Source: a virus. Taken from it: DNA of 52,308 bases. Position 1 is the stretch's first letter. The number at the start of each line of letters is the position of its first letter. Shown in pieces: positions 3,730 through 51,653 of this stretch. Below the pieces are notes generated by a model that saw only the letters and a list, made by a program, of their open reading frames with translations, had not been told where the DNA came from and did no database searches. Position numbers and translations under genes: made by a program. The DNA lies in IMG/VR virus record IMGVR_UViG_3300044726_000110, positions 1 through 52,308 of that record. One strand, written 5' to 3'.

Positions 3730-4203
3730 CTAGAAACGCGAGCTACGCGTTACCGGTGCGGTGGCTTTGGCCGCCTTTTCTACCAGCGTGATGATCACGC
3801 CCGCCATAACACGCTCGACCGAAATAGCTCCGGTGCGGGCGTCGCGGTACTCGACAACGTTGTCCGAGGAACGGAAATCGACCCGGAATTGACCCGGTGC
3901 GCTTCCAAGTTCCACCGACGCGGCGAGCGCGGCGCGGCTGAAGATGTGCCGCAATTGGTTGCGGTCACCTTCGTAGATCGGCTCAGCGCGTACCGCCGTC
4001 TTGACCGTGGGGTCGTCCGCGAAGATCGGCCATGCGCGAAGGGTGACTTTGCCAGCGGTTTTGGCGCTTGCAAGCACGGTGCGTGCAAATTCGATCTGGC
4101 GGGCGTCCGCGGAGCCAGAGGCTTCGATGAGCGCGAGCAGGTCTACAGCGGGGGCGGTAGGGGCGGCCGCAGCCACCCCCTTATCGAGGGTGGACTCGGC
4201 CAT
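3730..4203 (-). CDS. Hypothetical protein, first of the leftward block (157 aa)
   Basis: ATG 4203 (MAESTLDKGVAAAAPTAPAV) has GAAAGG upstream on the minus strand; the open frame beyond it crosses the G-quadruplex tract and is rejected. After a low-complexity Ala/Pro N-terminus (about 1-25) the protein has a helical region, then a beta-rich segment with FRVDFRSSDNVVEYRDA and a hydrophobic VMAGVIITLVEKAAK near the end. No family recognised. It is the gene nearest the control region and probably the most strongly transcribed of the block. Confidence 0.66.
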   Translation of the reverse strand: MAESTLDKGVAAAAPTAPAVDLLALIEASGSADARQIEFARTVLASAKTAGKVTLRAWPIFADDPTVKTAVRAEPIYEGDRNQLRHIFSRAALAASVELGSAPGQFRVDFRSSDNVVEYRDARTGAISVERVMAGVIITLVEKAAKATAPVTRSSRF

Positions 4204-4286: not shown

Positions 4287-4340
4287 CCGTGGCCCCTTGG
4301 AACTTCCTCATTGTAACAAAATATTCCTTGATGTACGCTC

Positions 4341-4749
4341 GTTATGTATCCAAGTCGATCTTCGCGCAAAGCTTAACACTTCGTAGTTATGTCAACGTCC
4401 GTAGGTTCACGGGGTGACATAATAGATCGTTGTGTGAGGGGGTGCCGACAGATCCCTTCCATAACGTGTACTAGACTTATGTCAAAATGAACGTATATTC
4501 ACTGGATTATGTCACCCCACGAGTCTGGAGATGACATAAGGTATGTGAGATCCGAGCACACATCGGATCCGAATATGGTGGGGTGTGCGTTCGGATCTGA
4601 GTCTGGGGGTGACATAAGTTTTGACGGATCAATATGGGGCGCACAACGCGTTATGTGGACACCCTCTCACAGAGAGACATAACGTTGGTCGATCATATAG
4701 ACATAAGTATCTTGACATAACGCGCATGGGTCCCACTCGTTATGTCAAG
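4341..4749. repeat. Cluster of TTATGTC / GACATAA sites
   Basis: About thirteen copies in both orientations. TTATGTC-type at 4387, 4477, 4507, 4741 (forward) and, as GACATAA, at about 4416, 4533, 4611, 4676, 4700 and 4714; degenerate copies at 4342, 4460 and 4651. Three share the longer GGGGTGACATAA (4411, 4506 inverted, 4607). Outside the cluster the 7-mer is rare and falls inside genes. Looks like an array of binding sites (repressor, origin or partition protein). Confidence 0.8.
4711..4749. repeat. Perfect 12-bp inverted repeat within the site cluster
   Basis: CTTGACATAACG at 4711-4722 and its exact reverse complement CGTTATGTCAAG at 4738-4749, 15 bp apart. Each arm contains one GACATAA site and a TTGACA hexamer. 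This is the strongest pair in the array and could bind a protein co-operatively or form a hairpin. Confidence 0.7.
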
Positions 4750-4915
4750 CGTGGTGTGTAGTTCACCAGGAGAACAATCCGAGTACGATTTTCAAAACCG
4801 AGATAATCGCCCAGGGGCGCATATATATTTTTGCAAAAAATCCAAATTGATCGCCTAGAGCGGGCCGGCCCAAAATGCATGTTCGCGAATCGGTCAGTCC
4901 AGGAGATATAAGGAA

Positions 4916-4956
4916 GCCCTCATGACTCATTCACCACAAAAATGAATCATGAGGGC
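4916..4956. terminator. Long hairpin, 15 of 16 pairs
   Basis: Left arm 4916-4931 (GCCCTCATGACTCATT), right arm 4941-4956, one C/A mismatch, 9-nt loop rich in A. On the leftward strand it ends about 50-90 nt downstream of the promoter at 5010-5039 and is followed by TTCCTTATA, so it may end a short leftward transcript. Confidence 0.6.
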
Positions 4957-5009
4957 CAAAGGAGAGCGCGAGCGTGTCTCGGGGGAGGTCGTTACTCGTC
5001 GCAATACAG

Positions 5010-5039
5010 AGTATAGTTCACGGGGGCACCTATTGTCAA
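5010..5039 (-). promoter_or_regulatory. Strong leftward sigma70-type promoter
   Basis: Minus strand TTGACA (5039-5034), 18-bp spacer, TATACT (5015-5010). The -35 is perfect and the -10 matches five of six positions. It points at the TTATGTC cluster and the left gene block. Its -35 lies within a 15-bp palindrome, so repression there is expected. Confidence 0.7.
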
Positions 5040-5043: not shown

Positions 5044-5113
5044 CTACTCCGTAGTATAGACAGCTTCTATGGAGCCAGGAATGTCTACAACGGCGTCTAC
5101 GGAGTTGTAAACT

Positions 5114-5216
5114 GTTTACAAAACGGCCTTTTAGGTTCAAACCCGAACCCGCCTCGTATACAAAACCCCTTTCTAGGTTCAAACCCGAACGCCCCTCGTA
5201 TACAAAACTCTTTACC
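5114..5216. repeat. 42-bp direct repeats, about 2.5 copies
   Basis: AGGTTCAAACCCGAAC recurs at 5133 and 5175, and GTATACAAAAC at 5156 and 5198, both with a 42-bp period; TTTACAAAACGG at 5115 starts a diverged copy. The period is a multiple of three, so reverse frames stay open, but no start with a ribosome site supports coding. GGTTCAAACCC resembles a tRNA T-arm sequence; no tRNA is present. Confidence 0.65.
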
Positions 5217-5493: not shown

Positions 5494-5522
5494 TTGCCAA
5501 CACCAAGTGGGCATGCTATTAT
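5494..5522 (+). promoter_or_regulatory. Promoter of the metzincin cassette, leaderless type
   Basis: TTGCCA (5494-5499), 17-bp spacer, extended TGC-TATTAT (-10 at 5517-5522). Six bases then separate the -10 from the GTG at 5529, so transcription would begin at or next to the start codon. Matches the layout upstream of 9691 and 44957. Confidence 0.7.
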
Positions 5523-5528
5523 AGAGGC

Positions 5529-5774
5529 GTGGAAGTTAACGCTAAAGATGCCCTCTGCCCCGGCTGCGATTGTCCCTTCACTGAGCACTATGCGTCAGTT
5601 GCGGGACCGATCCGCTGTACGAGCGTTGGCATGATCATCCTGGGCACCTACACCCGGTGTGATTGCCTCGACTACGTCAGCGCCGCCGTATCGCGGCACC
5701 GGAAGCGGGTCGCGGACTCACTCGAACTTCACAAGCAACGCGTCGATCACATCTTGCGGAGGTTTCGGAACTAA
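5529..5774 (+). CDS. Zinc-ribbon-like protein (81 aa)
   Basis: Start taken at GTG 5529, which sits 6 nt past a good extended -10 and gives VEVNAKDALCPGCDCPFTEH; a longer ATG start at 5487 would place the promoter inside the gene. CPGCDCPF and a later CDCLDY pattern with intervening Gly-rich strand suggest a small zinc-binding domain of the CxxC...CxC type seen in many phage and GC-rich bacterial mini proteins. C-terminal half is a basic helix (HRKRVADSLELHKQRVDHIL). First gene of a three-gene accessory cassette. Confidence 0.62.
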   Translation: MEVNAKDALCPGCDCPFTEHYASVAGPIRCTSVGMIILGTYTRCDCLDYVSAAVSRHRKRVADSLELHKQRVDHILRRFRN

Positions 5775-6028
5775 TGATTAGCGCACAGGAGCAAGCCGTA
5801 CTTCGCCTGATCGAGCACAACCCCGGCTTCACCAAGCATCAACTTGGGGCCGGAACCCGCCTCATGGTCCCGTATCCCCGCATGGGCCGGATACTTGATC
5901 GTTTTCTTGAGCTTGGCTACGTCCAGGTCGCGCGAAACACGCCAACTGAGAAGCACGGCTACTTCATCACCGACGCCGGCTGCGATTACCTCAATAACGT
6001 TGAGCGCGTCACCGAGATGCGACGGTAG
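5774..6028 (+). CDS. Winged-helix DNA-binding protein (84 aa)
   Basis: ATG 5774 shares one base with the upstream stop (TAATG), setting the start. The protein reads like a compact winged helix: an opening helix MISAQEQAVLRLIEHNPG, a turn FTKHQLGAG, a recognition region YPRMGRILDRFLELGYVQVA and a wing ending HGYFITDAGCDYLNN. This is the MarR/PadR-like pattern of small phage regulators. Likely regulates its own cassette or the neighbouring control region; targets unknown. Confidence 0.68.
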   Translation: MISAQEQAVLRLIEHNPGFTKHQLGAGTRLMVPYPRMGRILDRFLELGYVQVARNTPTEKHGYFITDAGCDYLNNVERVTEMRR

Positions 6029-6030
6029 CC

Positions 6031-6687
6031 ATGCGGACCATCTTCGTACTTGTCATTATAGTGGCTATGCTGCCGCTCGTGGATGTGAGCGCCTATAACC
6101 TACATCCCCACAAATTCCCGTCCGGCTGCATCACGCACTCGGGGGATGCCAACAACGAGGTGGGTGCGGCGCTGACTGAATGGGGCAAGTACGCCAATAT
6201 TCAGGACTGCGGGCCGGGTAATCAGATTACCTACACACTCGTAGATGGGCCAATGTATCCAGGCACCACGGTACGGGCCGAAGCTAACGCCAACGTCGTC
6301 AATAACGTCACCATCTCGTGTGCCATCACTGCCGACCGCGTTACCGGCATCCGATTCGAGACAACGATTCACGAAGTCGGGCACTGTCTTGGCCTGCGCC
6401 ACTCGGATGATCCGTCCGCTAACATGACGCCGAAGTGCTGCAATCCTATTAACAGCGACGACATCGCGGGCATACGCGCCTTGTACCCGTATCCGGTAAC
6501 CTCGACACCAACCTCGACACCGCGCCCGACGATTACGCCGTCGCCTAGCGCCACCCCAACCAATGTGGTACCATTCATCCCAACCTCTACACCAACGTAT
6601 ATACCCACGATGGTGCCAACATCAGTACCGATCGCGCCGCCTACGCGATGGTACCGGCTATTCGTTCCGGCGGTAGCGTATCGGTGA
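6031..6687 (+). CDS. Secreted metzincin-type metalloprotease (218 aa)
   Basis: Residues 1-21 (MRTIFVLVIIVAMLPLVDVS) form a signal peptide. The catalytic motif is at 114-124, HEVGHCLGLRH, i.e. HExxHxxGxxH with H114, E115, H118 and H124, followed by a Met-turn-like SANMTPKCC, the hallmark of matrixin-like metzincins. Residues about 156-205 are a Thr/Pro-rich linker and the end RLFVPAVAYR looks like a surface-sorting tail. No propeptide or cysteine switch is seen, and the domain is small. The gene lies 3 bp after the winged-helix gene and just before repeat copy b. Activity and export are inferred. Confidence 0.78.
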   Translation: MRTIFVLVIIVAMLPLVDVSAYNLHPHKFPSGCITHSGDANNEVGAALTEWGKYANIQDCGPGNQITYTLVDGPMYPGTTVRAEANANVVNNVTISCAITADRVTGIRFETTIHEVGHCLGLRHSDDPSANMTPKCCNPINSDDIAGIRALYPYPVTSTPTSTPRPTITPSPSATPTNVVPFIPTSTPTYIPTMVPTSVPIAPPTRWYRLFVPAVAYR

Positions 6688-6965: not shown

Positions 6966-8063
6966 ATGACCCAGGACCAACAATTCTTGCGCTGGCTCCA
7001 CGCCCGCCTACGCGACCAGCACGCCGAGAATCCCAACTACGACTACATGCAGAAGCTCATCGCCATTGCGGAGGCGTTGCCCGAAGGCGTCGATACGCCG
7101 GTCATGTCGCCGGTGCCAAGTGAATCATACTATATGCCGCCAATCAAGCTCAGCGATGGCGAAGTGCTCATCGCGCTGAGCCGCAAGGAGGCCCGTCGCA
7201 TTCACAAGGCGGCAGATACGCTGATGTGGGCCATCGGGATGTCGCCCGCCTTCGTCAAGAAGCCGAAGAAAGCCAAGACCAAGTTCGCGGGGAACCCGGT
7301 CATCTTTGATGAGGCCGTAGATCCCGACGAAATCGTGTTCACCAACGATGAGTACAGCATCAAGGAGACGTACGAGCCAGCCGCCTACCCGTTCGAGTCG
7401 ATTACCACGGAGATCCCGCTATCGGACCGGGTCGCGAAGCTGATGATCGACGCGATGAACAAGCGCGAGGACAAGGTGGCGCGTAAGGCCGAAAAGCGGC
7501 TGAAGAAGAAACTCGCGGATACGCCGAACGTCAACTCATTCGCGGAGCCAATCACTGAGCCGCCACGTCATGATGAGGGCATGCCGCCCACGGCTGCGGA
7601 TCGGGCGTTCAAGCACTTCCAGTCCAATCTCCAGGCCCGCAGCGTCAACGAACTCGGCATCGAGATCCACACGCTGGCGAAGGAGAAGGGCTGGTACGAA
7701 GATGCGGCCCTTGAGCGCCTCATTGACGACCTCGACGCCCTACACAAGGAGAACGGTGGCGTCAGCTTCGTGATTGAAGGACTAATCCGCCAGCACTGGC
7801 CCAAGCGGAACCTCGGTGAGCAGCTTTTCCTCATCGTGACGGAGCTTGCGGAAGCCTTCGAGGAGTATCGGGCCGGTCGCCCGATCAACGAGGTCTACGA
7901 AGATGGTGGGAAGCCGGAAGGCGTCCCGGTCGAAATTGCCGACGCCATCATCAGGATCCTGGACCTGACGGAGTACCACGGCATCAAGATGGGCGAGGTG
8001 ATGCGCCAGAAGATGGACTTCAACGCCACCCGGCCCCACCGCCACGGAGGCAAGTTGGCATGA
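6966..8063 (+). CDS. MazG-like NTP pyrophosphohydrolase, C-terminal domain (365 aa)
   Basis: Strong ribosome site AAGGAG ahead of ATG 6966. The last 90 residues carry the all-alpha NTP-PPase signature: LIVTELAEAFEEYRAG (ExxEE-type metal-binding helix) and VEIADAIIRILDLTEYHG (ExxD helix), ending RPHRHGGKLA as in many phage MazG-like proteins. The N-terminal 250 residues, with a Lys-rich coiled region near 160-190 and unknown start domain, are not recognised and make this longer than a standalone MazG. Expected role: hydrolysing non-canonical or alarmone-type nucleotides. The substrate cannot be read from sequence. Confidence 0.75.
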   Translation: MTQDQQFLRWLHARLRDQHAENPNYDYMQKLIAIAEALPEGVDTPVMSPVPSESYYMPPIKLSDGEVLIALSRKEARRIHKAADTLMWAIGMSPAFVKKPKKAKTKFAGNPVIFDEAVDPDEIVFTNDEYSIKETYEPAAYPFESITTEIPLSDRVAKLMIDAMNKREDKVARKAEKRLKKKLADTPNVNSFAEPITEPPRHDEGMPPTAADRAFKHFQSNLQARSVNELGIEIHTLAKEKGWYEDAALERLIDDLDALHKENGGVSFVIEGLIRQHWPKRNLGEQLFLIVTELAEAFEEYRAGRPINEVYEDGGKPEGVPVEIADAIIRILDLTEYHGIKMGEVMRQKMDFNATRPHRHGGKLA

Positions 8064-8401
8064 GCACGCAAGTAGATCCGCGCTTTGAGGTGCGGAGTCA
8101 TCAAATTAAGGGAAAGCGGCTTGAGTTCTTCAAGCTGTACGCGCAGGGGCGCTCTTATCGCGAAATCGCCGATGAGATGGGTTGCGCCCTCGACACCGTG
8201 AACAGCTATTATCGGGATGTGTGTGGCATCCTGTATACGACGAACTTGCGCGCCGTGGTGATGCAGGTCATGTATGACTTGCTGGAGGAGGTCCACGTCG
8301 GCTGGGATAACATGGACTTCGGGTTCGGCTCCACGGATCTGCCAGGATTCGCGCCCTGCTACTACCTTGAGGACAAGATCCTGGAGGATAAGGGCGCATG
8401 A
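8060..8401 (+). CDS. LuxR-type HTH protein (113 aa)
   Basis: Overlaps the upstream stop by 4 bp. Residues about 18-70 (RLEFFKLYAQGRSYREIADE then CALDTVNSYYRDVCGILYTT) match the GerE/LuxR helix-turn-helix pattern of E-x-LxLxAxGxSxxEIAxxLxxSxxTVxxxxxxIxxKL. The acidic C-terminal 45 residues have no recognised domain. No receiver or ligand domain is present, so it would act as a small transcription factor, perhaps for the phage late genes. Confidence 0.75.
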   Translation: MSTQVDPRFEVRSHQIKGKRLEFFKLYAQGRSYREIADEMGCALDTVNSYYRDVCGILYTTNLRAVVMQVMYDLLEEVHVGWDNMDFGFGSTDLPGFAPCYYLEDKILEDKGA

Positions 8402-9690: not shown

Positions 9691-10113
9691 ATGGACTTGG
9701 ACAGCGTTCCGGTGCGAGCACGCACCCCGCACGGCGTGCCGCGATCTGCGACATCTAAGGCATTAAAGGCGAAATGGATGGCCGATAACCCCACGCCGGG
9801 GGAAGCTGCATTCCGCCATATCCTGATGAGCCTGGGCATTGAGCACGAGTTCCAGACGCAAGCCCAGATCGCGGGGTTCATCGTTGACTTTTATCACTGC
9901 GGTCTACGTACTGATGGCAAGGTTTGCCGGCCCTTTGTGGTCGAAATCGATGGTGCTAGCCATTTCACGGCGGCGGGCAAGAAGAAGGATGCGGAGCGGA
10001 CGCGGGCGCTGAAAAGGACCGGCGTCAGCCAGGTAATCCGCTTTACGAACACTGAAGTGATCAAGAATCGGAAGAGTATCCTGCAAGTTGTGATGAGCGC
10101 CCGTGGCAACTGA
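9691..10113 (+). CDS. DUF559/Vsr-type PD-(D/E)XK nuclease (140 aa)
   Basis: After a short basic N-terminus comes TPGEAAFRHILMSLGIEHEF, then IAGFIVDFYH, FVVEIDGASHF and ERTRALKRTGVSQVIRFTNTEV. E (in PGE), D (in VDF) and E-x-D (VEIDG) match the catalytic pattern of the very-short-patch-repair/DUF559 nuclease fold. In phages such proteins can be homing-type, recombination or packaging-associated nucleases; the position directly before terminase suggests a part in DNA processing, which is inference. Confidence 0.75.
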   Translation: MDLDSVPVRARTPHGVPRSATSKALKAKWMADNPTPGEAAFRHILMSLGIEHEFQTQAQIAGFIVDFYHCGLRTDGKVCRPFVVEIDGASHFTAAGKKKDAERTRALKRTGVSQVIRFTNTEVIKNRKSILQVVMSARGN

Positions 10114-10966
10114 TCCAATCGCACTTCTGCTCGAACAAATGGTCGAGGGCATCGAGGGACTCAAGGGCGACGACAAGGCCGCGTACGATGACCTGGAGTT
10201 CTACTCGCGCTACGTCATTGGATACGGGAATCCTGACTACAAGAGCAACAGTAGGTTTCTGCGCAAAATCTACCAGGAATTGCAGTATTCGACGGATGAG
10301 GAGTTCCTGATCCTTGGTCCGCGGCAGTCTGCGAAGTCTCAGGCCGTCACGATTACTTATACCACGTGGTCAATTGGCCGAAATCCGCTTTTGCGGTTCC
10401 TTTTGGCGTTTGCATCGATGGATGTGCAGGGTTTGGCCTTCGCTCGGCAGCTAGATCAGATCATTTCGGGCAATGAGCGCTATATCAAGATATTTGGGCA
10501 GCTTAAGCCCGATAAGCCCGAAAAGTGGGATGCGAAAGAGAAGATCGTGTCGAGGGACACGCCTCCCGGCGGTTTGAAAGACCCCACGATCAGCGTGGTG
10601 GGTCTTGGAAGCGCGGTTCCGTCGAAACGCGCCGATGTCATCATTTGTGACGACTTGGTCACGGGGGAAAACGCGTACTCGCCCGCATTGAGGAAGATGG
10701 TCAGCAGCTTTGTGAAGCAGAGCCTGATGCCCATCCTGGTGCCGGGTGGCAAGACCATCGTGGTCGGGTCGCGCTGGGATCCACGAGACATCTATGCTGA
10801 ACTGAGCAACGACTGGGGAAAGCCCTTCCCACGTACGGTTCCCATCGATACCAAGATCCTGTATGATAAGAGCGGCGGCGACGCGGTCACCGAAGAGGAA
10901 CTTGAAGAGTTCTATGATGACGTTGAGCTTAGTCCTGACGAGAAGCGCGAAACGATCCTTGTATGA
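10103..10966 (+). CDS. terL: Terminase large subunit, ATPase part (287 aa)
   Basis: GTG start overlapping the nuclease gene by 11 bp. Walker A GPRQSAKS at 72-79, Walker B VIICDD at 179-184 and the coupling segment VVGSRWDP at 220-227 identify the packaging motor ATPase. The nuclease domain expected after it is absent: the frame ends with two tandem stops TGATGA at 10964-10969, and the remaining domain starts in the next gene in the same frame. The C-terminal 40 residues are acidic (TEEELEEFYDDVELSP). Confident as terminase; the split is the odd point. Confidence 0.9.
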   Translation: MATDPIALLLEQMVEGIEGLKGDDKAAYDDLEFYSRYVIGYGNPDYKSNSRFLRKIYQELQYSTDEEFLILGPRQSAKSQAVTITYTTWSIGRNPLLRFLLAFASMDVQGLAFARQLDQIISGNERYIKIFGQLKPDKPEKWDAKEKIVSRDTPPGGLKDPTISVVGLGSAVPSKRADVIICDDLVTGENAYSPALRKMVSSFVKQSLMPILVPGGKTIVVGSRWDPRDIYAELSNDWGKPFPRTVPIDTKILYDKSGGDAVTEEELEEFYDDVELSPDEKRETILV

Positions 10967-10984: not shown

Positions 10985-12082
10985 ATGGCGGTCCTGATCT
11001 ACGAGAGAGCCATACATGTGCATACGTCCCGGCACAGCCAGTATTGTGAGAAAGGCTGTGATCTAGAGGACGGGGACTTGCAGAGCTACTGGCCTGAGCA
11101 CTGGCCGGTCGAGAAGCTGGCACGCAAGTGGCGAGCCGTCACATCAGGGCCGTTCGGGGCTGGATACCAGAATGATCCGAATGCGTTGTCGGGAAACGCG
11201 CTGGAACGCGATTGGGTCCACTTCTACGACCAGGAGATGCTCGATGCTCATCGCAGACTACTGGGAGTACCGCGCGGTTCTCTACATGCCGGGGCTGACC
11301 CAACAAGAGGAGGATCAGGACGGGATCCAGACTTTTTTGCGTGTATTCACGCTGAGCGACTCGAAAACCGGGCATACTTTCTTGACTTCTTCAATCGTCG
11401 GCTCCGAATCGACGAACAGGCCCAATTTCTTGAAGATTGGATCACTGTACGGGGTGGGATACAGACTGGGGTTATCGAGGACACGTCAGAGAAGGGTTAC
11501 GTTTGGAATGACCTCCAGCAGGTAAACAAGGATCCCGTAACCGGGCGGGCGCAGGGCACAAGGTTCAACTGGGTCGTTGAGAAGGCGCAGGGGCGCAACG
11601 CAGTGGGTGCCAAGGAACTCCGATATCTGGCGATGGCACCACGCTTCAAGAACGCCCAAATCATGATTCCTGGCATCAGGGACGGGTTGGAGTGGCGAGT
11701 TGATCCGCGCTGGGACATATTCATGCAGGAATGGTGCGCCTTTCCATCAGGTCACGATGACTTGCTGGATGCGGCGTTTTGGACCTCATTTGCGTGTTTT
11801 GGGAAGGAAGCGCCCGCATCAGCGATCCTGTCGGAGAAAAGCGCGTCAGATCGGTTGAGGGAAAAGGTGAAGGGCCGCGTGTGTGATCGAGAGGCCCATG
11901 TGCGCTTTGGTCAGCCGCTTGACCTCTGTGGGCGCTGTATGGCAGAGTTTGAAGCCAGCCAATCGCTGGCGGCTGGCCGCGAACAACTTGGCTCGCAACA
12001 AGCGGGCCAGCCGTCAGCGAGGGGTCTTGAAGTCCATCGATACGACCGGCCAAGCGTAGGGATGGGATTAAGGGGACGGTAA
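10985..12082 (+). CDS. terL: Terminase large subunit, nuclease part (365 aa)
   Basis: Own ribosome site AGGTGA 5 nt before ATG 10985, 18 bp after the ATPase gene. YWPEHWPVEKLARKWRA and FGAGYQNDP continue the terminase consensus; the RNase H-like nuclease acidic residues are D105 (HAGADPTRGG), E165/D166 (VIEDTSEKG) and the terminal GHDDLLDAAFW (D258, D259, D262). A C-terminal extension of about 100 residues with a CxRC pair (DLCGRCMAE) is unusual. Together with the ATPase gene it would supply a two-chain packaging motor. Confidence 0.87.
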   Translation: MAVLIYERAIHVHTSRHSQYCEKGCDLEDGDLQSYWPEHWPVEKLARKWRAVTSGPFGAGYQNDPNALSGNALERDWVHFYDQEMLDAHRRLLGVPRGSLHAGADPTRGGSGRDPDFFACIHAERLENRAYFLDFFNRRLRIDEQAQFLEDWITVRGGIQTGVIEDTSEKGYVWNDLQQVNKDPVTGRAQGTRFNWVVEKAQGRNAVGAKELRYLAMAPRFKNAQIMIPGIRDGLEWRVDPRWDIFMQEWCAFPSGHDDLLDAAFWTSFACFGKEAPASAILSEKSASDRLREKVKGRVCDREAHVRFGQPLDLCGRCMAEFEASQSLAAGREQLGSQQAGQPSARGLEVHRYDRPSVGMGLRGR

Positions 12083-15501: not shown

Positions 15502-18123
15502 TTGACGGCTGCGCCGCGTGAGGTTACTCTTGCGCGGCGAGCCAGTCAGGTTGTCCTCGTGGTGCAAGTTACCGAAAGTGTAGCGTCGCTTCAAGCGGCG
15601 CTTTCTGCTGTCCGTAACGCCTTCGACGCGAATGTGCTCGAAGAAGATGCCGTTACCCGGCTGCGGTACATCCAGGGCGCGCTCTCAGTGGCGGTTAATG
15701 GTGACTGGGTTAGCCCAGTGGGGATCCCCAGTGTCGAGGCTCTGGCCGGATGGCCCGCCGAGACTGCGAGTGAAGCTGGCGCGAAGTTCAGCGCCGCCAC
15801 CCGTGCCGCCATCCTTAGTATGGCAGACACGCTCAAGGGACTCCTGGGTACGCAGCCCGACGATGCCGACAAGACTGCGCTCACTGCCGCCGTTGACGAG
15901 ATCAACGACAGCGTCGAGGCCATGATCAAGGAAATCATGGGGAAGAGCGAACCGGCGACCGAGTCGCTGGCCGCGATCACGTTCTCGTCCATGACGTTCG
16001 TGCAGGAAGGTACTGTTCCTGCGGACGCCAAGTACCGGATGTTCGTCATCCGCGAAGGCTTGAGCGGCAACCGCAATAACTGGACAAGGCCGGTATTGGA
16101 GGCCGCTACGGCAAGCCTTAATAACCGGCCTATCTTCTTGGACCATGCGCGCGGTAGTGAACGGGGCGCGCCTGAGCCACGGAGCCTTGCTGACCGCGTG
16201 GGCTGGTGGAGCGATCCCGCCTACGTCAAGGATTACCCCGTCAGCGAGGGCGTGAAGGCGAGTGGCATCATTGCTACCGCCAATATTCTTAGGCACTCAG
16301 CGCATTCCTGGGTCAATGACATGATCAAGGAATCGCTTGAACGCAACATGCCGGAACTCGTGGGCGTAAGTGTTGACGCCGCAATCACGGGCAAGGTCAA
16401 GACCGGATCAGATGGAAAGATGTTCCGGGACATCGAGAGCATCGTTGGGTGGCACTCGGCCGATTTGGTCGCGACCCCCGGCGCTGGTGGACAACCATTG
16501 GCGGTCCTTGAAGGATTGCTACGCGACGAGGAGATCATGGCACTCGAAGATATGACTCTCGAAAGTCTGCGGGAAGCGCGACCGGAACTCTATGAGGCCA
16601 TCGTCGCGCAGGCCAAGGAAGGGATGGTTCCGGTAACGGAAGCCACGCCTCCCCCGCCCGCAGCAGATCCGCCGCCGGCCCCAGCCGACGACAAGACCGA
16701 TGCTGTCACGGAGACGCTCACGCGCATCCAGCAGATCGAAACCAACATGAAGCTCACGCAGCAGGCGGCTGTCGTTGAGGCCATGCTGATCACTTCGGTA
16801 CTTCCCGAAGAGGTCCGCAAAGTCATCCGCACGGAGATCGGCACCACCGAACTCCGCACCGTGGAGGAACTTCAGGCCACCATCGACAAGTACGTCTCCG
16901 TGGCGCGGACGCTGGTGCAGGAGTCCCAGACCCTGACCAACACCACGCTGATCCCGTTCAGGGGCAGCGTCGTGATGGAAGGCCAGAACACTCCGCTCGA
17001 CCAGGTGATGAACGCGCTCGACGACTGGTTCGGTGCCGGGGATCCTGCCAAGAAAGGCACCTTCCGGCCCATCGAGTCGATGCGGCAGTTCTACCAGGCC
17101 GTCACCGGCGACTACGATTTCAACGGCGTGTACAACGCCAAGGAATCCGCCATCGGCAGCTACCTCGACATGCGTGTTACCGAGGCTCTCCCCGGTCAAA
17201 CACACATCGTCGGCGGCTCCACGATCACGCTTCCCAGCCTGTTCGGGCTGTCGATGAACCGGGCGCTCACCAAGAAGTACGCGGCACAGCGTCTCTGGTG
17301 GGAGCCGGTTGTTGAGAAGAAGCGCCTCAACAACTTCAAGGAGCAGGAGCGCACCCGGCTGCACTCCTTCGGATCTCTGACCCAGCGCACAGTCGGTACT
17401 GAAGAGTACGTCGAACTGGACTGGGCTGAGACGAAGGAAGTGTACACGCCGACCGGATACGGCAACGTTGTCCCGGTCAACCGGCGCGGCTTCATCAACG
17501 ACGACATGGAAGGCATTCGCCGGATTCCCACCCTGCTGGGCGAATCCGCTGGATACACCATCAACGAAGTCGTTGCTGCTCTCTTCACCGCCAACTCGGG
17601 CGCAGGCGTTGCCCTCACCGATACGTTCGCTGTGTTCCACGCCAACCACCAGGGCAACCTGGGATCGGCGGCGCTGGACCAAGCGTCCCTCGAAGCGGCC
17701 ATCGTGCTCGTCTCGGGCATGACCAACGATGCGTCGAAGGCAATCGGCTGGCAGTTGAAGCACCTGTTGGTGCCGAACACGCTGATGCCGACCGCCTACC
17801 GGCTCACTCAGTCCCAGCAGACGCCGGGAACCGCGAACAACGATCCGAACTTCATCGCTTCCCAGTGGGGCGTGTCGAACGTGATCTACGTTCCGCAGTT
17901 CAACGCCGACGCCAACAACTGGTACGCGATGGCAGACCCGTCCGAGATCACGCTGATTGAAGTCGGCTTCATCCTCGGCCAGGAAGAGCCTGCCATGTTC
18001 GTCCAGAACGGGCCGACCGAGGGCATCGTCTTCACCAACGATGTCATCAACTACAAGGTCCGTCACGAATATGGCGCGGACTTCATCGATTACCGCGGCG
18101 CTTACGGCGCAGTCGTCGCCTAA
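15502..18123 (+). CDS. Prohead protease, scaffold and major capsid protein fused (873 aa)
   Basis: One continuous frame, TTG start at 15502. Residues about 155-345 are a capsid maturation protease: FVIREGLSGNRNNWTRPVLE, PIFLDHARG with H215, and LVGVSVDAAITG with S290. A Pro-rich linker (about 382-400) and a helical scaffold-like region follow. From about 480 the sequence reads as a major capsid protein of the Mu gpT/HK97-fold type, ending YGADFIDYRGAYGAVVA. The first 155 residues are Ala-rich helix of unknown role. Self-cleavage would release capsid subunits. Fusion of all three is unusual but no frameshift is visible. Confidence 0.85.
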   Translation: MTAAPREVTLARRASQVVLVVQVTESVASLQAALSAVRNAFDANVLEEDAVTRLRYIQGALSVAVNGDWVSPVGIPSVEALAGWPAETASEAGAKFSAATRAAILSMADTLKGLLGTQPDDADKTALTAAVDEINDSVEAMIKEIMGKSEPATESLAAITFSSMTFVQEGTVPADAKYRMFVIREGLSGNRNNWTRPVLEAATASLNNRPIFLDHARGSERGAPEPRSLADRVGWWSDPAYVKDYPVSEGVKASGIIATANILRHSAHSWVNDMIKESLERNMPELVGVSVDAAITGKVKTGSDGKMFRDIESIVGWHSADLVATPGAGGQPLAVLEGLLRDEEIMALEDMTLESLREARPELYEAIVAQAKEGMVPVTEATPPPPAADPPPAPADDKTDAVTETLTRIQQIETNMKLTQQAAVVEAMLITSVLPEEVRKVIRTEIGTTELRTVEELQATIDKYVSVARTLVQESQTLTNTTLIPFRGSVVMEGQNTPLDQVMNALDDWFGAGDPAKKGTFRPIESMRQFYQAVTGDYDFNGVYNAKESAIGSYLDMRVTEALPGQTHIVGGSTITLPSLFGLSMNRALTKKYAAQRLWWEPVVEKKRLNNFKEQERTRLHSFGSLTQRTVGTEEYVELDWAETKEVYTPTGYGNVVPVNRRGFINDDMEGIRRIPTLLGESAGYTINEVVAALFTANSGAGVALTDTFAVFHANHQGNLGSAALDQASLEAAIVLVSGMTNDASKAIGWQLKHLLVPNTLMPTAYRLTQSQQTPGTANNDPNFIASQWGVSNVIYVPQFNADANNWYAMADPSEITLIEVGFILGQEEPAMFVQNGPTEGIVFTNDVINYKVRHEYGADFIDYRGAYGAVVA

Positions 18124-40480: not shown

Positions 40481-40509
40481 AGTATACTATGCCGCGAGCG
40501 AGTTGTCAA
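40481..40509 (-). promoter_or_regulatory. Leftward promoter ahead of the exonuclease-ThyX unit
   Basis: Minus strand TTGACA (40509-40504), 17-bp spacer, TATACT (40486-40481). The -35 lies in GTTGACAAC, a 9-bp sequence present at three other leftward promoters. The -10 lies across the polymerase stop codon. Confidence 0.7.
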
Positions 40510-41278
40510 CAGGTCGCCACGTGCTGCGCGGATATGGGTGCTTGTCGGGATCGAATCCCTTGACCGTTCCCCACGATTGTCCGAACTCGAAATCCACGAA
40601 CACGGGAACCTTGAGGGTGACGGCGCTTGCCATGATAGCGGGGATGGTTTCCGCGAGCCACTGCACTTCGCCGTCCGGTGCCTCTATGACTATCTCGTCG
40701 TGGACAAGCGCTATGATTTTGCTAGCGCAGTTACTAGCCTTCATGAAGCGGTACACACGGAGGGCGGCAGTCTTGAAGTAGTCGGCAGCCGAACCCTGGA
40801 TCGGGTGGTTGATGGCACCGCGCTCAGCCTCGCCGCGCTTCTCGAAATCGCGGGACGTTATGTCGGGGAAGTAGCGCCGCCGCCCCATCATGGTTTCGGC
40901 GTACCCGTTGATCTTGCAGAACTTGATCGTGTCAAGCTGCCACTCGCGCCAGCCGGGGTAGGCATCGTAGACGCCCTTGATGAAGCTGTCGGCTTGCTCA
41001 ATGGTCAGGCCCAAGGTGGGTGTGCGCTTGAGGAGGCCGTGCCCTGCCATGCCGTAGGCTACCCCGAAGTTCACGGTCTTGGCGACGAGGCGCATATCCT
41101 TGCGGCGCTTCACGGTCGGCTCGCCACGGGCTAGTTCGGTGGCGAAGATCTGGCGGATGGTGTTCTCGTGAATGTCCCCGCCCGGTCCAAGTTCGCGGAT
41201 CATGGACTCGTCCCCGCTCAGGTGGGCCGCGATACGCATCTCTATTTGGGACAGGTCGATAGCGCATATCTTACTCAT
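40487..41278 (-). CDS. polA: DNA polymerase A, catalytic C-terminal part (263 aa)
   Basis: ATG 41278 (MSKICAIDLSQIEMRIAAHL) begins right at motif A (D-x-SQIEMR). Motif B is MRLVAKTVNFGVAYGMAG (R, K, F, Y of the O-helix) and motif C is IALVHDEIVIEAP. Ends RPVDNSLAA. The N-terminal palm start and thumb are absent here; they lie in the 42107-43924 gene with four small genes between. Start codon is in a 4-bp overlap with the previous stop, so it is translated by reinitiation. Confidence 0.85.
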   Translation of the reverse strand: MSKICAIDLSQIEMRIAAHLSGDESMIRELGPGGDIHENTIRQIFATELARGEPTVKRRKDMRLVAKTVNFGVAYGMAGHGLLKRTPTLGLTIEQADSFIKGVYDAYPGWREWQLDTIKFCKINGYAETMMGRRRYFPDITSRDFEKRGEAERGAINHPIQGSAADYFKTAALRVYRFMKASNCASKIIALVHDEIVIEAPDGEVQWLAETIPAIMASAVTLKVPVFVDFEFGQSWGTVKGFDPDKHPYPRSTWRPVDNSLAA

Positions 41279-41460
41279 GGTGCGTACGGCCCATGCATGT
41301 CCTCTTCGCGAGGCTTGAAATATCCGCAGTTGCAGCACACGACCCCGATGAGCGTCTCCCATAAGAAGAAGCCTTTTAACTTGCCGTGGAAGCAGTGGTA
41401 CGGCGAGTTAACGATGCCGCCGCAGTTGGTTACGCGACGATCAGGTTTGGGTATCGCCAT
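41275..41460 (-). CDS. Zinc-ribbon-like insert gene (61 aa)
   Basis: ATG 41460 (MAIPKPDRRVTNCGGIVNSP). NCGG and later VVCCNCGYFKP form a possible Cys4 site. It lies between the two polymerase halves, coupled at both ends. Not a homing endonuclease by sequence. Function unknown. Confidence 0.58.
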   Translation of the reverse strand: MAIPKPDRRVTNCGGIVNSPYHCFHGKLKGFFLWETLIGVVCCNCGYFKPREEDMHGPYAP

Positions 41461-41461
41461 G

Positions 41462-41638
41462 TTAGTCCTCACGTTTCCAAGGCGTGACGCTCCAGCGCTC
41501 GCCTAGATACAACATGTACTCACGGGTAGCACCGCACCAGATGCATCCTTCGATGCCGGTAGTTGTGAAGATGCGGTGGTGTTCGTGGTACTGAGCAGGC
41601 CCGTGGATCCCGAGTTTGCAGAACAGGCGCTTAAACAT
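41462..41638 (-). CDS. Small basic protein, polymerase insert (58 aa)
   Basis: ATG 41638 (MFKRLFCKLGIHGPAQYHEH) overlaps the end of the previous gene by 8 bp. Pattern CKLGIHG...HHRIFTTTGIEGCIWCGA: the CxxC (CIWC) with HG and HH may bind zinc. No family recognised. Confidence 0.58.
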   Translation of the reverse strand: MFKRLFCKLGIHGPAQYHEHHRIFTTTGIEGCIWCGATREYMLYLGERWSVTPWKRED

Positions 41639-41834
41639 TCCAGCCATCCTCTTTGTTGAGTCGTGCAATGATCAGTTCGGCCTCGGCCGCGAGATCTCGT
41701 GGGGCCACCTTGTTGTCGCGGCCAGCGTAGGCGGCGCATTCGTGGTAGCCGTTGTCATCGGCCAGCCGCCACTTGCCGTCCTGCTTCTGCTTCCATGACA
41801 GATCAGTTGCCTTGCAGTGCTTGCAGTCAGGCAC
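41631..41834 (-). CDS. Zinc-ribbon mini protein, polymerase insert (67 aa)
   Basis: MPDCKHCKATDLSWKQKQDG starts with a CxxC pair; the second Cys group is absent except HECAAYAG. An acidic C-terminal helix (RDLAAEAELIIARLNKEDGW) follows. Overlaps its neighbours by 8 bp on both sides. Unknown. Confidence 0.58.
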   Translation of the reverse strand: MPDCKHCKATDLSWKQKQDGKWRLADDNGYHECAAYAGRDNKVAPRDLAAEAELIIARLNKEDGWNV

Positions 41835-42114
41835 GATCTATCACCCACGGTATGTGTAGGTAGCGCGTGGTGTCATCACGTGGAGTCTGTACGTCTAGCG
41901 GAATCGTGACCCTGCTTCTGAGTATCAGTGCGCCCCATACGTGGATTTGTGCGACCATCACCTCATCCAGGTAGAGGCCGGGTGGTACCTCAAGCCTAAA
42001 GTTACCGGTAACTGTGCCTTGGTCGTTCCTGACGTTATGTACCTTCGGGTTCCACCAGCGATAGACTGGTCGCTCCCTCTTGCCACGGGCCAAGATAACT
42101 TGATGCTCATCCAT
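41827..42114 (-). CDS. Hypothetical protein, polymerase insert (95 aa)
   Basis: ATG 42114 overlaps the polymerase N-part stop by 8 bp, coupling it. MDEHQVILARGKRERPVYRW, beta-rich TGNFRLEVPPGLYLDEVMVA and a C-terminal PWVIDRA. No known motif. First of the four inserted genes. Confidence 0.58.
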   Translation of the reverse strand: MDEHQVILARGKRERPVYRWWNPKVHNVRNDQGTVTGNFRLEVPPGLYLDEVMVAQIHVWGALILRSRVTIPLDVQTPRDDTTRYLHIPWVIDRA

Positions 42115-43924
42115 TGTCAGGCTCCATTGGTGCAATGAACGCGTTGCGGATGAGTGAGCCATCCACCTCGAAGCTGAGGTCGTCGCGCTTGCGGGCTGGT
42201 ATGTTGGTTTGGTTAGGGTTGGCTGAGGCGAACCGTCCGGTCGCCACCGATGCCTGCTTCACCTCGCTGTGTATGCGACCGGCGTTATCCATCCACTTCG
42301 GGAGTCCCTCGATGTAGGTACCGAACATTTTCTGGATCGCCTTGTAGGTGAGGATGTCACGGACGAGGGGGTTGGCGGAGTACGGTGCGAGGGATACCTT
42401 GTCAGTCGGCATCGCCTTCTGGTTCTTGGTTACGCGGAACGTGGGGATCTGGTGTTCGGTCGGCCACACGTAGAGCGCGTTCTGGACCTGCTGCCAGGAT
42501 CCGGGATTGAAGCGCACACCCTTGTTCTTCTTGTCGGCGGGTGGAGCAAACTCATCTACGACTTCCATGATGCGGGCGTACACTGCCTCTAGGCCGGTGC
42601 GGAGGTTCGCGGCGGCTTCGGTGAGTTCGTTGGGGTCGAACAGCATCCCGTTCCGCTCGACCTCGATGACTACGTCGTTAACGGGCACTTCGAGATCAGC
42701 GTACAAGTCCCACTGGTTACGTTCCTCAAGCAGATGCTTAAGGACGTAGTAGAGGCGCAGCGAAGCGTCGGCATCTTGGGCGGCGTAGGCCACGACTGAG
42801 GGGAAGTCGGCGTCTTGAGCGGCTCGCATATCGACAACGTAGTTACCACTTCGGGGATCCTTTCGCTTGAAGCCTCGATCATAGAAGGTCTTGATCTTCT
42901 GCATCTCGATGCCAGTGGCTAGGTGAAAGCCGTCTTTCAGGCCGAGTGGGTAGTCGCCCGCCACCCACGCCATGAGCATCGTGTCATCCCAATTCTGTAG
43001 GTCGATCCCGTACCCGTGGCAGATGTGTCGCTCGAACTTGGCGTTCGACACGATCTTGAGATGCTCGGTGGACTCTAGCTGTGGCTGGATCATGACCATG
43101 ACCGCTTCGGCTTCTGCGTCATCCTCGAAGGGGTAATACAGGCCGTCGCCGGGATCAGCACAGACACCCAAGCCGATGACCTTCGCGCCGCGCATGCCTT
43201 GGTCGTTGTCATAAATTTCATCACCGCTGTCGTCGGCACCGTTGCCGGTATCGGTTTCAAGGTCGAAGCCGAAGATGGGTGCTTCCACGGCGCGGCGGAT
43301 CTCATCCAGGGTTGCCACGGTGCGGCGGAACGGGAGCGCGTTCGTCTCGTACTTGCCAGTCCGCATAATGTCTACGGCTTTGTGAAGATCCTGCCGGAAC
43401 AGCGGCGTCCAATACTGCGGGTTCTGCTGCACGAATATGGGCTGCACGGTCGGTATGATGTATCGGTCCTTGCCCCATAGGTGGCGCTTGTAAACATTGC
43501 CCCGGATCTGGAGGAGGCCAGCTTCGTCGGGCAGCATCTGCTTGACGGCAGCAGCGCCAATCACGAGGATAACGATTGGATCAACTGTCTCGCCCTCCTC
43601 ATCCAAGTAGGGGCGGCAGATGCGGGCCTCGACGTTGAGGACTTCACGATCCTTGAGGGGGCGGCAGTGGACGATGTTCGTGCGGAAGCAGTCGCGGTCC
43701 ATGTCTACGTGCATCGTGGACAGGTGGTGGGCCAGGATCTGGCCTGTCTCCCCAGCGAGGGGCTTACCGATTTGGTCCTCTCGTACGGCGGGGGCCACGG
43801 AGACGATCATCATGCGGGCATCGTGGTTGCCGTACCCCGGCACCACACGGGTGCGATGCTCACTGAGGGGGCATTTTTTGCAGCCGAGTAGGCCGTCGAG
43901 GAACATCGGTAGTGGTTCACTCAT
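42107..43924 (-). CDS. UDG-like domain, 3'-5' exonuclease and DNA polymerase A N-part (605 aa)
   Basis: Residues about 5-185: a family-4 uracil-DNA glycosylase-like domain. It keeps the iron-sulphur Cys pattern (CKKC at 15-18, then VHC and RIC) but SVAPAVRED replaces GEAPGxxED and PTVQP replaces the usual PTxHP, so glycosylase activity is doubtful. Then a DnaQ-type exonuclease: FGFDLETDT, VSNAKFERHI, YAAQDADASL. Last part is the thumb and start of the palm, with TGRFASANPNQTNIPAR, ending at IRNAFIAPMEPDNG where the split occurs. Works with the 40487-41278 product as a two-chain polymerase. Confidence 0.85.
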   Translation of the reverse strand: MSEPLPMFLDGLLGCKKCPLSEHRTRVVPGYGNHDARMMIVSVAPAVREDQIGKPLAGETGQILAHHLSTMHVDMDRDCFRTNIVHCRPLKDREVLNVEARICRPYLDEEGETVDPIVILVIGAAAVKQMLPDEAGLLQIRGNVYKRHLWGKDRYIIPTVQPIFVQQNPQYWTPLFRQDLHKAVDIMRTGKYETNALPFRRTVATLDEIRRAVEAPIFGFDLETDTGNGADDSGDEIYDNDQGMRGAKVIGLGVCADPGDGLYYPFEDDAEAEAVMVMIQPQLESTEHLKIVSNAKFERHICHGYGIDLQNWDDTMLMAWVAGDYPLGLKDGFHLATGIEMQKIKTFYDRGFKRKDPRSGNYVVDMRAAQDADFPSVVAYAAQDADASLRLYYVLKHLLEERNQWDLYADLEVPVNDVVIEVERNGMLFDPNELTEAAANLRTGLEAVYARIMEVVDEFAPPADKKNKGVRFNPGSWQQVQNALYVWPTEHQIPTFRVTKNQKAMPTDKVSLAPYSANPLVRDILTYKAIQKMFGTYIEGLPKWMDNAGRIHSEVKQASVATGRFASANPNQTNIPARKRDDLSFEVDGSLIRNAFIAPMEPDNG

Positions 43925-44126
43925 CGTCGTGGCCCCTGATTTTCTCAACTTCTGCAACGATGGCATCACCCGCCGCATTCTCCAGCAGCCACATGCAATC
44001 AATGCATAGATGGATATGACCGGGCTTAGAACCGCCCCAACGACGGCTAACCATTGCATCCACTTGGGCCGAAAGAGTTAGCGTAGCGCGCGGATCAGCG
44101 GGCTGACCACAAATACACTCAGCCAA
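43917..44126 (-). CDS. Cys-containing small protein (69 aa)
   Basis: TTG 44126 in overlap with the previous stop. AECICGQPADPR at the start and HIHLCIDCMWLLENAAG later form a CxC...CxxC pattern, a possible zinc knuckle; acidic C-terminal helix. Its stop overlaps the polymerase start by 8 bp. Unknown. Confidence 0.58.
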   Translation of the reverse strand: MAECICGQPADPRATLTLSAQVDAMVSRRWGGSKPGHIHLCIDCMWLLENAAGDAIVAEVEKIRGHDDE

Positions 44127-50446: not shown

Positions 50447-50563
50447 CTAATTGCGGATCGAGTAACGTTCGGGATACAGCAGCAGCAAAAGGTAAAAGAG
50501 AGTGGTGGCTAGAGCGGGCACAAGTATAGCAAGGTGCAGTACGAGGCGCAAGCGCCTAAACAT
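50447..50563 (-). CDS. Membrane mini protein (38 aa)
   Basis: Hand-read gene: ATG 50563 overlaps the HTH gene stop by 8 bp; stop TAG at 50447. MFRRLRLVLHLAILVPALAT then TLFYLLLLLYPERYSIRN, a single basic start and one membrane span. Translation-coupled to the HTH protein. Probably real by coupling; function unknown. Confidence 0.55.
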   Translation of the reverse strand: MFRRLRLVLHLAILVPALATTLFYLLLLLYPERYSIRN

Positions 50564-50792
50564 CACCGCGTTCGTTGCGAATGGCGGCGCACTGCTCGTC
50601 AATGCGGAGCTTGGAGATCCACGTGGAGAGGGTGCTGTTGTCGATGTCTAGTGCATCGGCGGCTAGCTTGTCGGTGTCGTGATCAACGAGGGCGTCGATC
50701 AGGATGTCTCGTATGTCTTTGCCGTCGTTGTCGCGCTCAAGCTGGCGCATGGCGAGCGACTTCTTTACTGGTGTCCAGCTTGCTACACTCAT
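50556..50792 (-). CDS. Small HTH DNA-binding protein (78 aa)
   Basis: ATG 50792, immediately after a TACCTT -10 (6 nt), so probably leaderless. A C-terminal helix-turn-helix (TDKLAADALDIDNSTLSTWI then SKLRIDEQ) of the Fis or Cro-like kind with acidic N-terminal helix (RQLERDNDGKDIRDILIDAL). Located next to two 10-bp direct repeats covering divergent promoters, so it may regulate itself and the plus-strand genes. Confidence 0.7.
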   Translation of the reverse strand: MSVASWTPVKKSLAMRQLERDNDGKDIRDILIDALVDHDTDKLAADALDIDNSTLSTWISKLRIDEQCAAIRNERGDV

Positions 50793-50794
50793 GT

Positions 50795-50863
50795 TTATAA
50801 GGTAGCAGTTTGAAGCTAGGTTGTCAATGCTCGTTCGTTGACAGCTACCTCTATTATAAGGTA
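50795..50863. promoter_or_regulatory. Divergent promoters with duplicated TTATAAGGTA
   Basis: TTATAAGGTA at 50795-50804 and 50854-50863 on the plus strand, 59 bp apart. The first overlaps the -10 (TACCTT, 50804-50799) of the leftward HTH gene, whose -35 is TTGACA at 50827-50822 (17-bp spacer). The second overlaps the rightward -10. Confidence 0.55.
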
Positions 50864-50867
50864 ACGT
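50838..50867 (+). promoter_or_regulatory. Weak rightward promoter, leaderless type
   Basis: TTGACA (50838-50843), 18-bp spacer, TAACGT (50862-50867), then six bases to ATG 50874. The -10 is poor, as at the divergent leftward promoter; an activator may be needed. Confidence 0.5.
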
Positions 50868-50873
50868 GCCAGC

Positions 50874-51653
50874 ATGCCAGAACCTAATGACGGCTACGAA
50901 GGCATCACTGTTCCACCAGGATTCGATCCTCTGAAGAACTGCGGCGCGAAGTTGCGTAAGAAGGGCAAGCTGTGCATGAACGAGTGCGGCTTCAGGACCG
51001 AGGATCTCGGTAATCCCCTGAAGCGGTGCTATCTTCACGGGGGGCTGACTCCGGTGAAGAGTGGTGAGTTTAGCAAGATCGTGGGTGGACGTGTGCCAGC
51101 AAAGAACCGCGTCTCCCTGCGTGACCAGATCGAGGAGATGCGGCGCAGCCCTGACCTCCTAGCACTGGACGAGCAGATCGCTGTCCTCAAGGCAGTGATT
51201 CGCCGCAAGGTAGACATCGCTGAGGATAGCTGGGATCGTTATGACGCATACTTGGACGCTTGTAAAATCGCTGCCCAAACGAATGGCGCGATGCCTGACG
51301 CTACAATGGTACCCGGCCTGCCTCATGAAGAGATGTCTCTGCTCAGTAAGCTCGTGGGCCAGGAATACGAGATGCGATTTAGCAAGCGCTTCAGCGTCCC
51401 CTTGTTGGAAGTGCAAGCGCTCGTCGCTCAAATCGTGAACGCGTTCAACGAGACTGCCACGCGCTACAATATTAGTGATGAAGCGCGGCGCTCCTTCGCC
51501 GTCAAGATCGCAAACCTCAAGACGGCCCGCGTTGGTGAGGATGCACAGCTTAGCCGCGCAGGACTCGGCCCTGTACTTGAGGCACCGCGCAGCATGGATG
51601 AGCAGACCGTTATCGACGTGACACCAAGTGGGGCCGACGTTGCAGCCGGATAA
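50874..51653 (+). CDS. HGG-motif phage protein (259 aa)
   Basis: ATG 50874. N-terminal CGAKLRKKGKLCMNECGFRT and LKRCYLHGGLTPVKSGEFSK: the C-x-A...C...RCxxHGGxxP pattern of phage proteins often found near terminase and thought to bind zinc or DNA. Then a long helical body (LRDQIEEMRRSPDLLALDEQ, RFSKRFSVPLLEVQALVAQI). A small-terminase-like role is possible, since no small subunit lies by the large one. Confidence 0.68.
   Translation: MPEPNDGYEGITVPPGFDPLKNCGAKLRKKGKLCMNECGFRTEDLGNPLKRCYLHGGLTPVKSGEFSKIVGGRVPAKNRVSLRDQIEEMRRSPDLLALDEQIAVLKAVIRRKVDIAEDSWDRYDAYLDACKIAAQTNGAMPDATMVPGLPHEEMSLLSKLVGQEYEMRFSKRFSVPLLEVQALVAQIVNAFNETATRYNISDEARRSFAVKIANLKTARVGEDAQLSRAGLGPVLEAPRSMDEQTVIDVTPSGADVAAG

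Follow-up and report, generated by a model that had tools for sequence, protein, structure and literature searches.

A dense array of XerD-arm-like words in the early control region of an uncultivated, putatively actinobacterial phage

The stretch analyzed here, hereafter the window, is 52,308 bp long and comprises an entire IMG/VR virus record (IMGVR_UViG_3300044726_000110); it has no end repeats, and the record may therefore be incomplete. Rightward genes occupy 5.5-35.7 kb and encode the terminase, portal, capsid and tail, while leftward genes lie at the left end and at 36-50 kb (helicase, a Sak4-like protein, polA in two pieces, exonuclease, ThyX and dCMP deaminase). Matches to ThyX, MazG-like and DUF6197 proteins suggest an actinobacterial host. 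Neither the control region nor the late region showed DNA homology to known phages, and single-sequence queries with the product of 3730-4203, the capsid and polA returned no relatives; those discussed below were found via the helicase and terminase. The large terminase is divided between two ORFs, an ATPase part and a nuclease part (10103-10966 and 10985-12082), a split also seen in the relatives G001, G003, L014, L016, L017 and L018, with the parts 1.6 kb apart in G003 and L014. The two polA ORFs (40487-44059) are separated by about 750 bp holding small ORFs at 41503-41739 and 41827-42162; the corresponding parts are nearly adjacent in G001 and overlap in G003. A Matrixin-like (M10) metalloprotease is encoded at 6031-6687, and G001 has a short similarity to it near 47.8 kb.

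Between 4.3 and 5.5 kb lies a non-coding gap of approximately 1.2 kb, whose features are collected in Table 1. The earlier note on this DNA had described an array of repeated words in AT-richer DNA upstream of the leftward gene block, and this placement holds: the array is non-coding, lies immediately upstream of a candidate leftward promoter, and has a G+C content of ~0.5 compared with 0.59 for the window. To its right, the strong leftward promoter at 5039-5010 is followed by a predicted RNA of ~100 nt (~5003-4905), which is very stable (z -5.1), contains a long hairpin at 4916-4956, and is a candidate small RNA or attenuator. Further right, the GTATAC and AAACCCGAAC elements of the 42-bp repeats (5114-5208) recur, by eye, in the relatives G001 and L017. 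The combined element, GTATAC/GTTTAC with AACCTAAACCCGAA (window 5107-5208; L010:1-60; L017:567-637), looks conserved across the control regions of this virus family and is possibly an operator. A GTG codon lies exactly at the expected start of the rightward promoter (5529), so that its transcript is probably leaderless.

Table 1. Features of the control region and individual sites of the TTATGTC array (window coordinates)
Feature	Position	Strand	Remark
First leftward gene	3730..4203	-	157 aa, no family match
Candidate leftward promoter CGTACA-16-TACAAT	4310..4337	-	Extended -10 TGT; directly left of array; consensus scan
Whole TTATGTC array	4342..4746		10 exact, 2 one-mismatch, 1 two-mismatch copies
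Near copy TTATGTA	4342..4348	+	Adjoins leftward promoter candidate
Site TTATGTCAACG	4387..4393	+	
Site TTATGTCACCCC	4416..4422	-	Pairs with 4507 in 13-bp inverted repeat
Weak copy TTATGGA	4458..4464	-	Two mismatches
Site TTATGTCAAAA	4477..4483	+	
Site TTATGTCACCCC	4507..4513	+	
Site TTATGTCATCT	4533..4539	-	Faces 4507, 26 bp between starts
Palindromic element	4548..4600		Four TCGGATC/GATCCGA words, in the array's largest gap
Site TTATGTCACCCC	4611..4617	-	
Near copy TTATGTG	4651..4657	+	One mismatch
Site TTATGTCTCTC	4676..4682	-	
Site TTATGTCTATA	4700..4706	-	
Site CGTTATGTCAAG	4714..4720	-	Pairs with 4740 in 12-bp inverted repeat
Site CGTTATGTCAAG	4740..4746	+	
AT-rich tract	4801..4850		36% GC, right of array; possible unwinding element
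Promoter TTGACA-18-TATACT and predicted structured RNA	4895..5039	-	Strong, near-consensus promoter (5039-5010)
42-bp repeats	5107..5208		GTATAC/GTTTAC with AAACCCGAAC
Rightward promoter TTGCCA-17-TATTAT	5494..5522	+	TG

The array comprises ten exact and three mismatched copies of TTATGTC/GACATAA, in keeping with the roughly thirteen sites reported in the earlier note. The motif scan of the full window that it had proposed shows the word to be specific to this place: ten of its 12 copies lie within 360 bp (4387-4746), four on the plus and six on the minus strand, and the two copies outside (35012 and 40858) both fall within genes. Whole-window shuffles predict 3.3 copies, with none of 100 reaching 12; across 2,000 local shuffles of the 461-bp array region the word occurred 0.1 times on average and at most three times, and no 7-mer of any kind exceeded six copies in shuffles of that region. 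All eight occurrences of the overlapping word TATGTCA in the 52 kb fall within the array. Two further elements of the original description were also found, namely an extended word, GGGGTGACATAA, occurring three times (4411-4422 and 4606-4617 on the plus strand, 4507-4518 inverted), and a perfect 12-bp inverted repeat (4711-4722/4738-4749); the array contains a second perfect inverted repeat, of 13 bp (4411-4423/4506-4518). Start-to-start spacing is irregular (14-78 bp) and the strands are mixed. Across the ten exact copies the 7-bp core is invariant and position 8 is A in eight, while the outer flanks are free. Judged by this pattern, the array is almost certainly a protein-binding cluster, and the occurrence of both orientations, the irregular spacing and the invariant core with free flanks fit a protein that would bind one asymmetric word as a monomer. 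Other properties of the region were less informative. GATC (Dam-like) sites are not significantly enriched (eight copies vs four expected from the window count), no Rfam family matched the array region, and the good fold of the minus strand (z -4.3) is one that inverted words produce anyway; an RNA-level reading was rejected.

The earlier note knew of no match for the word, but a precedent exists. In actinobacterial dif (…CATTATGTCAAGT), the XerD arm has TTATGTCA as its inner 8 bp, and full-arm arrays occur in other viruses, as described below. A scan of 84,980 genomes with the dif pattern CCGATAATNNNCATTATGTCAAGT matched at least 119 stretches, almost every one with an Actinomycetota title; the published dif of F. 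alni reads CACGCCGATAATGCACATTATGTCAAGT (PMC3025954). Like the XerD arm, the asymmetric array word would be a site for one recombinase monomer. TTATGT, which belongs to the inner bases of the arm, is present in all ten exact copies, and the full inner 8 bp are retained in eight of them. The outer arm, AAGT, is missing from most: TTATGTCAA is found at four of the ten sites and TTATGTCAAG at two. The array also differs from dif in comprising 10-13 copies within 400 bp, with neither a XerC arm nor the 6-bp centre; by inspection, no CCGATAA-type arm lies 6 bp before any array site, and so there is no 28-bp dif. The flanks of the window sites fit dif arms better than random ones (p ~0.001), whereas scoring the flanks given the core, under a full-arm model against background, yields -12.9 bits for the window compared with +76.8 for four other phage arrays. 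Some high-GC genomes have dif arms of the form TTATGTCAC(C/T)TA, which are nearer to the three TTATGTCACCCC copies of the window, and a host with a different XerD arm is thus possible.

XerD arms are also found singly beside dif itself. Lone TTATGTCAAGT-type arms, with no XerC arm, lie 250-570 bp from dif on its XerC side at ~17 of the 119 loci, with 19 hits in four 100-bp bins compared with ~2 expected from neighboring bins. Across these dif loci (L033-L151), the lone arms mostly read GTTATGTCAAGT and mostly share the orientation of dif, and one locus (L057) has two, 18 bp apart. XerD arms are thus present outside dif in host chromosomes. Among 396 genomes drawn as the 'phylum of G012', pairs of TTATGTCA were found in 15, compared with ~5 for a control; these were pairs only, and no arrays.

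A search of IMG/VR (2.9 million contigs) for three spaced copies of the word returned unrelated viruses in which the words read TTATGTCAAG. The hit count itself was rejected as evidence, since a reversed control word also returned arrays (6 stretches vs 9); what carries weight here is instead the presence of further sites, together with the consensus. With TTATGTCAAG-N5-35-TTATGTCAAG as a pair pattern, 41 stretches of viral DNA matched, a raw count with no control word, which together with L027 and L028 from the three-site scan make up 29 lineages. In 18 of these 29, which are unrelated to one another, TTATGTNAA(G/C) words form arrays of 3-11 sites, counted within 450 bp either side, and the pooled consensus of these other viral arrays, (C/T)(A/G)TTATGT(C/a)AAG(T/C), is the full XerD arm. 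Examples with 3-11 TTATGT(C/A/T)AA(G/C) words lie at L208:13256-13490, L027:11122-11510, L226:5290-5440, L026:10111-10285 and L195:8146-8335, and in L215, L214, L211 and others. At L028:8080-8200 (in G010), XerD-arm-like words are interleaved with GAACATATGTTC, a LexA box look-alike. Read whole, G007-G010 each contain exactly one XerD-arm cluster (in G010, the hits mark both ends of a single cluster). Neither across G007-G010 nor in a wider comparison of neighbors did any shared phage protein emerge as a possible reader of the sites, and no PF00589 recombinase was found in the five array viruses G007-G011. The literature searched yielded no published description of XerD-arm arrays in viruses. 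The arrays of L208, L027, L226, L026 and L195 resemble that of the window in having the same core, 3-11 copies within 900 bp, and a position mostly outside long ORFs; unlike it, they keep the full arm TTATGTCAAG, vary at position 7 and in many cases have a single orientation, whereas the window is constant at position 7 and variable at positions 9-11. By its sequence, the window array is an imperfect member of this group, in which the inner 8 bp fit and the outer arm does not.

The earlier note had named a lack of conservation in related phages as a refuting result: the syntenic relative G001 has no copies of the word, the region around the array being replaced, and G001 is distant, with another accessory region. 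The array is likewise absent from all relatives found via the helicase and terminase (G001, G003 and fragments). Because the relatives lacking it are distant, conservation cannot settle how the array is to be read. An equivalent array of another word was not established in G001, where G+C-rich repeats look like local composition; four GCGTTTACAAACGC copies and ~24 CGGCCGC words lie there between divergent genes (L012:15897-16357 and 17075-17470). In another relative (L017:251-2060), ~10 (A/C)TCGG(A/T)ACTAGG-like words lie between genes, almost all pointing the same way, and appear stoperator-like or REP-like.

If the sites are not read by XerD, they may be operators, coated by a phage-encoded monomeric DNA-binding protein that would repress or activate the leftward early promoter at ~4310; we regard this as a possible explanation, albeit a doubtful one. 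The array ends directly at that promoter candidate, its core is invariant in ten copies while the flanks are free, and winged-helix/HTH genes lie nearby, candidate binding proteins including the products of 3730-4203, 5774-6028, 8060-8401 and 50556-51038. Moreover, both the array and the winged-helix/HTH genes are missing from G001, as expected of a swapped module. Structural models were unusable for the product of 3730-4203 (pLDDT 52.7) and for that of one HTH gene (pLDDT 41). Against operators, the mixed and irregularly spaced sites mostly do not overlie a -35/-10, a dozen is many for a single promoter, and the usual binding sites of MarR-like proteins are palindromes; identity with the XerD arm over 8 bp would also have to be a coincidence.

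An unlikely reading is that of a replication origin, in which the words would be initiator iterons, the tract at 4801-4850 the unwinding element and the leftward RNA at ~5003-4905 a control RNA. The points in its favor are a repeat cluster adjoining an AT-rich tract, a strong promoter with a very stable small RNA, and a non-coding divergent region, and iteron origins of plasmids and phages similarly place repeated short words beside AT-rich DNA. However, classical iterons are regular direct repeats usually adjoined by the initiator gene, whereas the array is irregular in both spacing and orientation, and no Rep-like initiator family was found among the window proteins scanned. GC skew, which the earlier note had offered as a check, lends the origin no support, as fourfold sites show no origin-type switch at the array.

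A temperate phage or phage-plasmid could use such an array as stoperators or as a partition (centromere-like) site, analogues raised in the earlier note, but this is very improbable here. Short asymmetric sites repeated in an actinophage-like genome do recall Cluster A operators and stoperators, since L5-type repressors bind such sites as monomers, but Cluster A stoperators are dispersed in intergenic gaps with an orientation that follows transcription (PMC9283540), whereas here a different word is clustered in both orientations, with its only two outlying copies intragenic. No ParA-type ATPase (PF13614) was detected in the window, a record that may be incomplete, nor was any tyrosine (PF00589) or serine (PF00239) recombinase/integrase, which would be expected to be encoded alongside integrase attachment or arm sites. 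Some other explanation altogether takes the remaining probability.

The explanation we favor, tentatively and with less than even confidence, is that the array comprises about 12 XerD-arm-type half-sites and constitutes a binding array of the host-XerD type. In its favor are the density of the array, the 8-bp identity to the XerD arm, the lone arms near dif, the full-arm arrays of other viruses and the lack of a detected phage recombinase; against it are the loss of the outer arm, the relatives that have no array, and the fact that, with 2.9 million contigs to search, an array of a given word is no rarity. Each asymmetric word would be read by one protein monomer, most likely the host's own XerD or else one of similar specificity, which would coat the region; as no XerC arm is present, we infer that it would do so without recombining. 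At the early control region, the resulting complex may form a road-block or serve an architectural role. Array-bound XerD might, for instance, unload the host's SMC from phage DNA, which is proposed here because XerD is described as a sequence-specific SMC unloader near the Bacillus subtilis terminus (Karaboja et al. 2021, as cited in PMC12322038). On the phage array, too, XerD would bind without recombining; the B. subtilis system differs in being chromosomal and from another phylum. Alternatively, bound XerD may silence or time leftward transcription. More broadly, and more speculatively, diverse phages may carry dense arrays of host-XerD half-sites, with neither dif nor a recombinase of their own, and use XerD architecturally, for example to strip SMC/condensin from their DNA or to insulate the early control region. 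In that case, the window would represent a divergent member, with outer arms matching the XerD of another host.

If XerD does read these arrays, they would represent a previously unrecorded recruitment of host chromosome-terminus machinery by phages, and small natural DNAs would become available for testing the SMC-unloading role of XerD. A separate and directly testable lead is offered by the lone XerD arms beside actinobacterial dif. Even if a phage protein reads the array, it supplies a ready-made short binding word, in a dozen copies, with which to search for the regulator in a group of uncultivated viruses.
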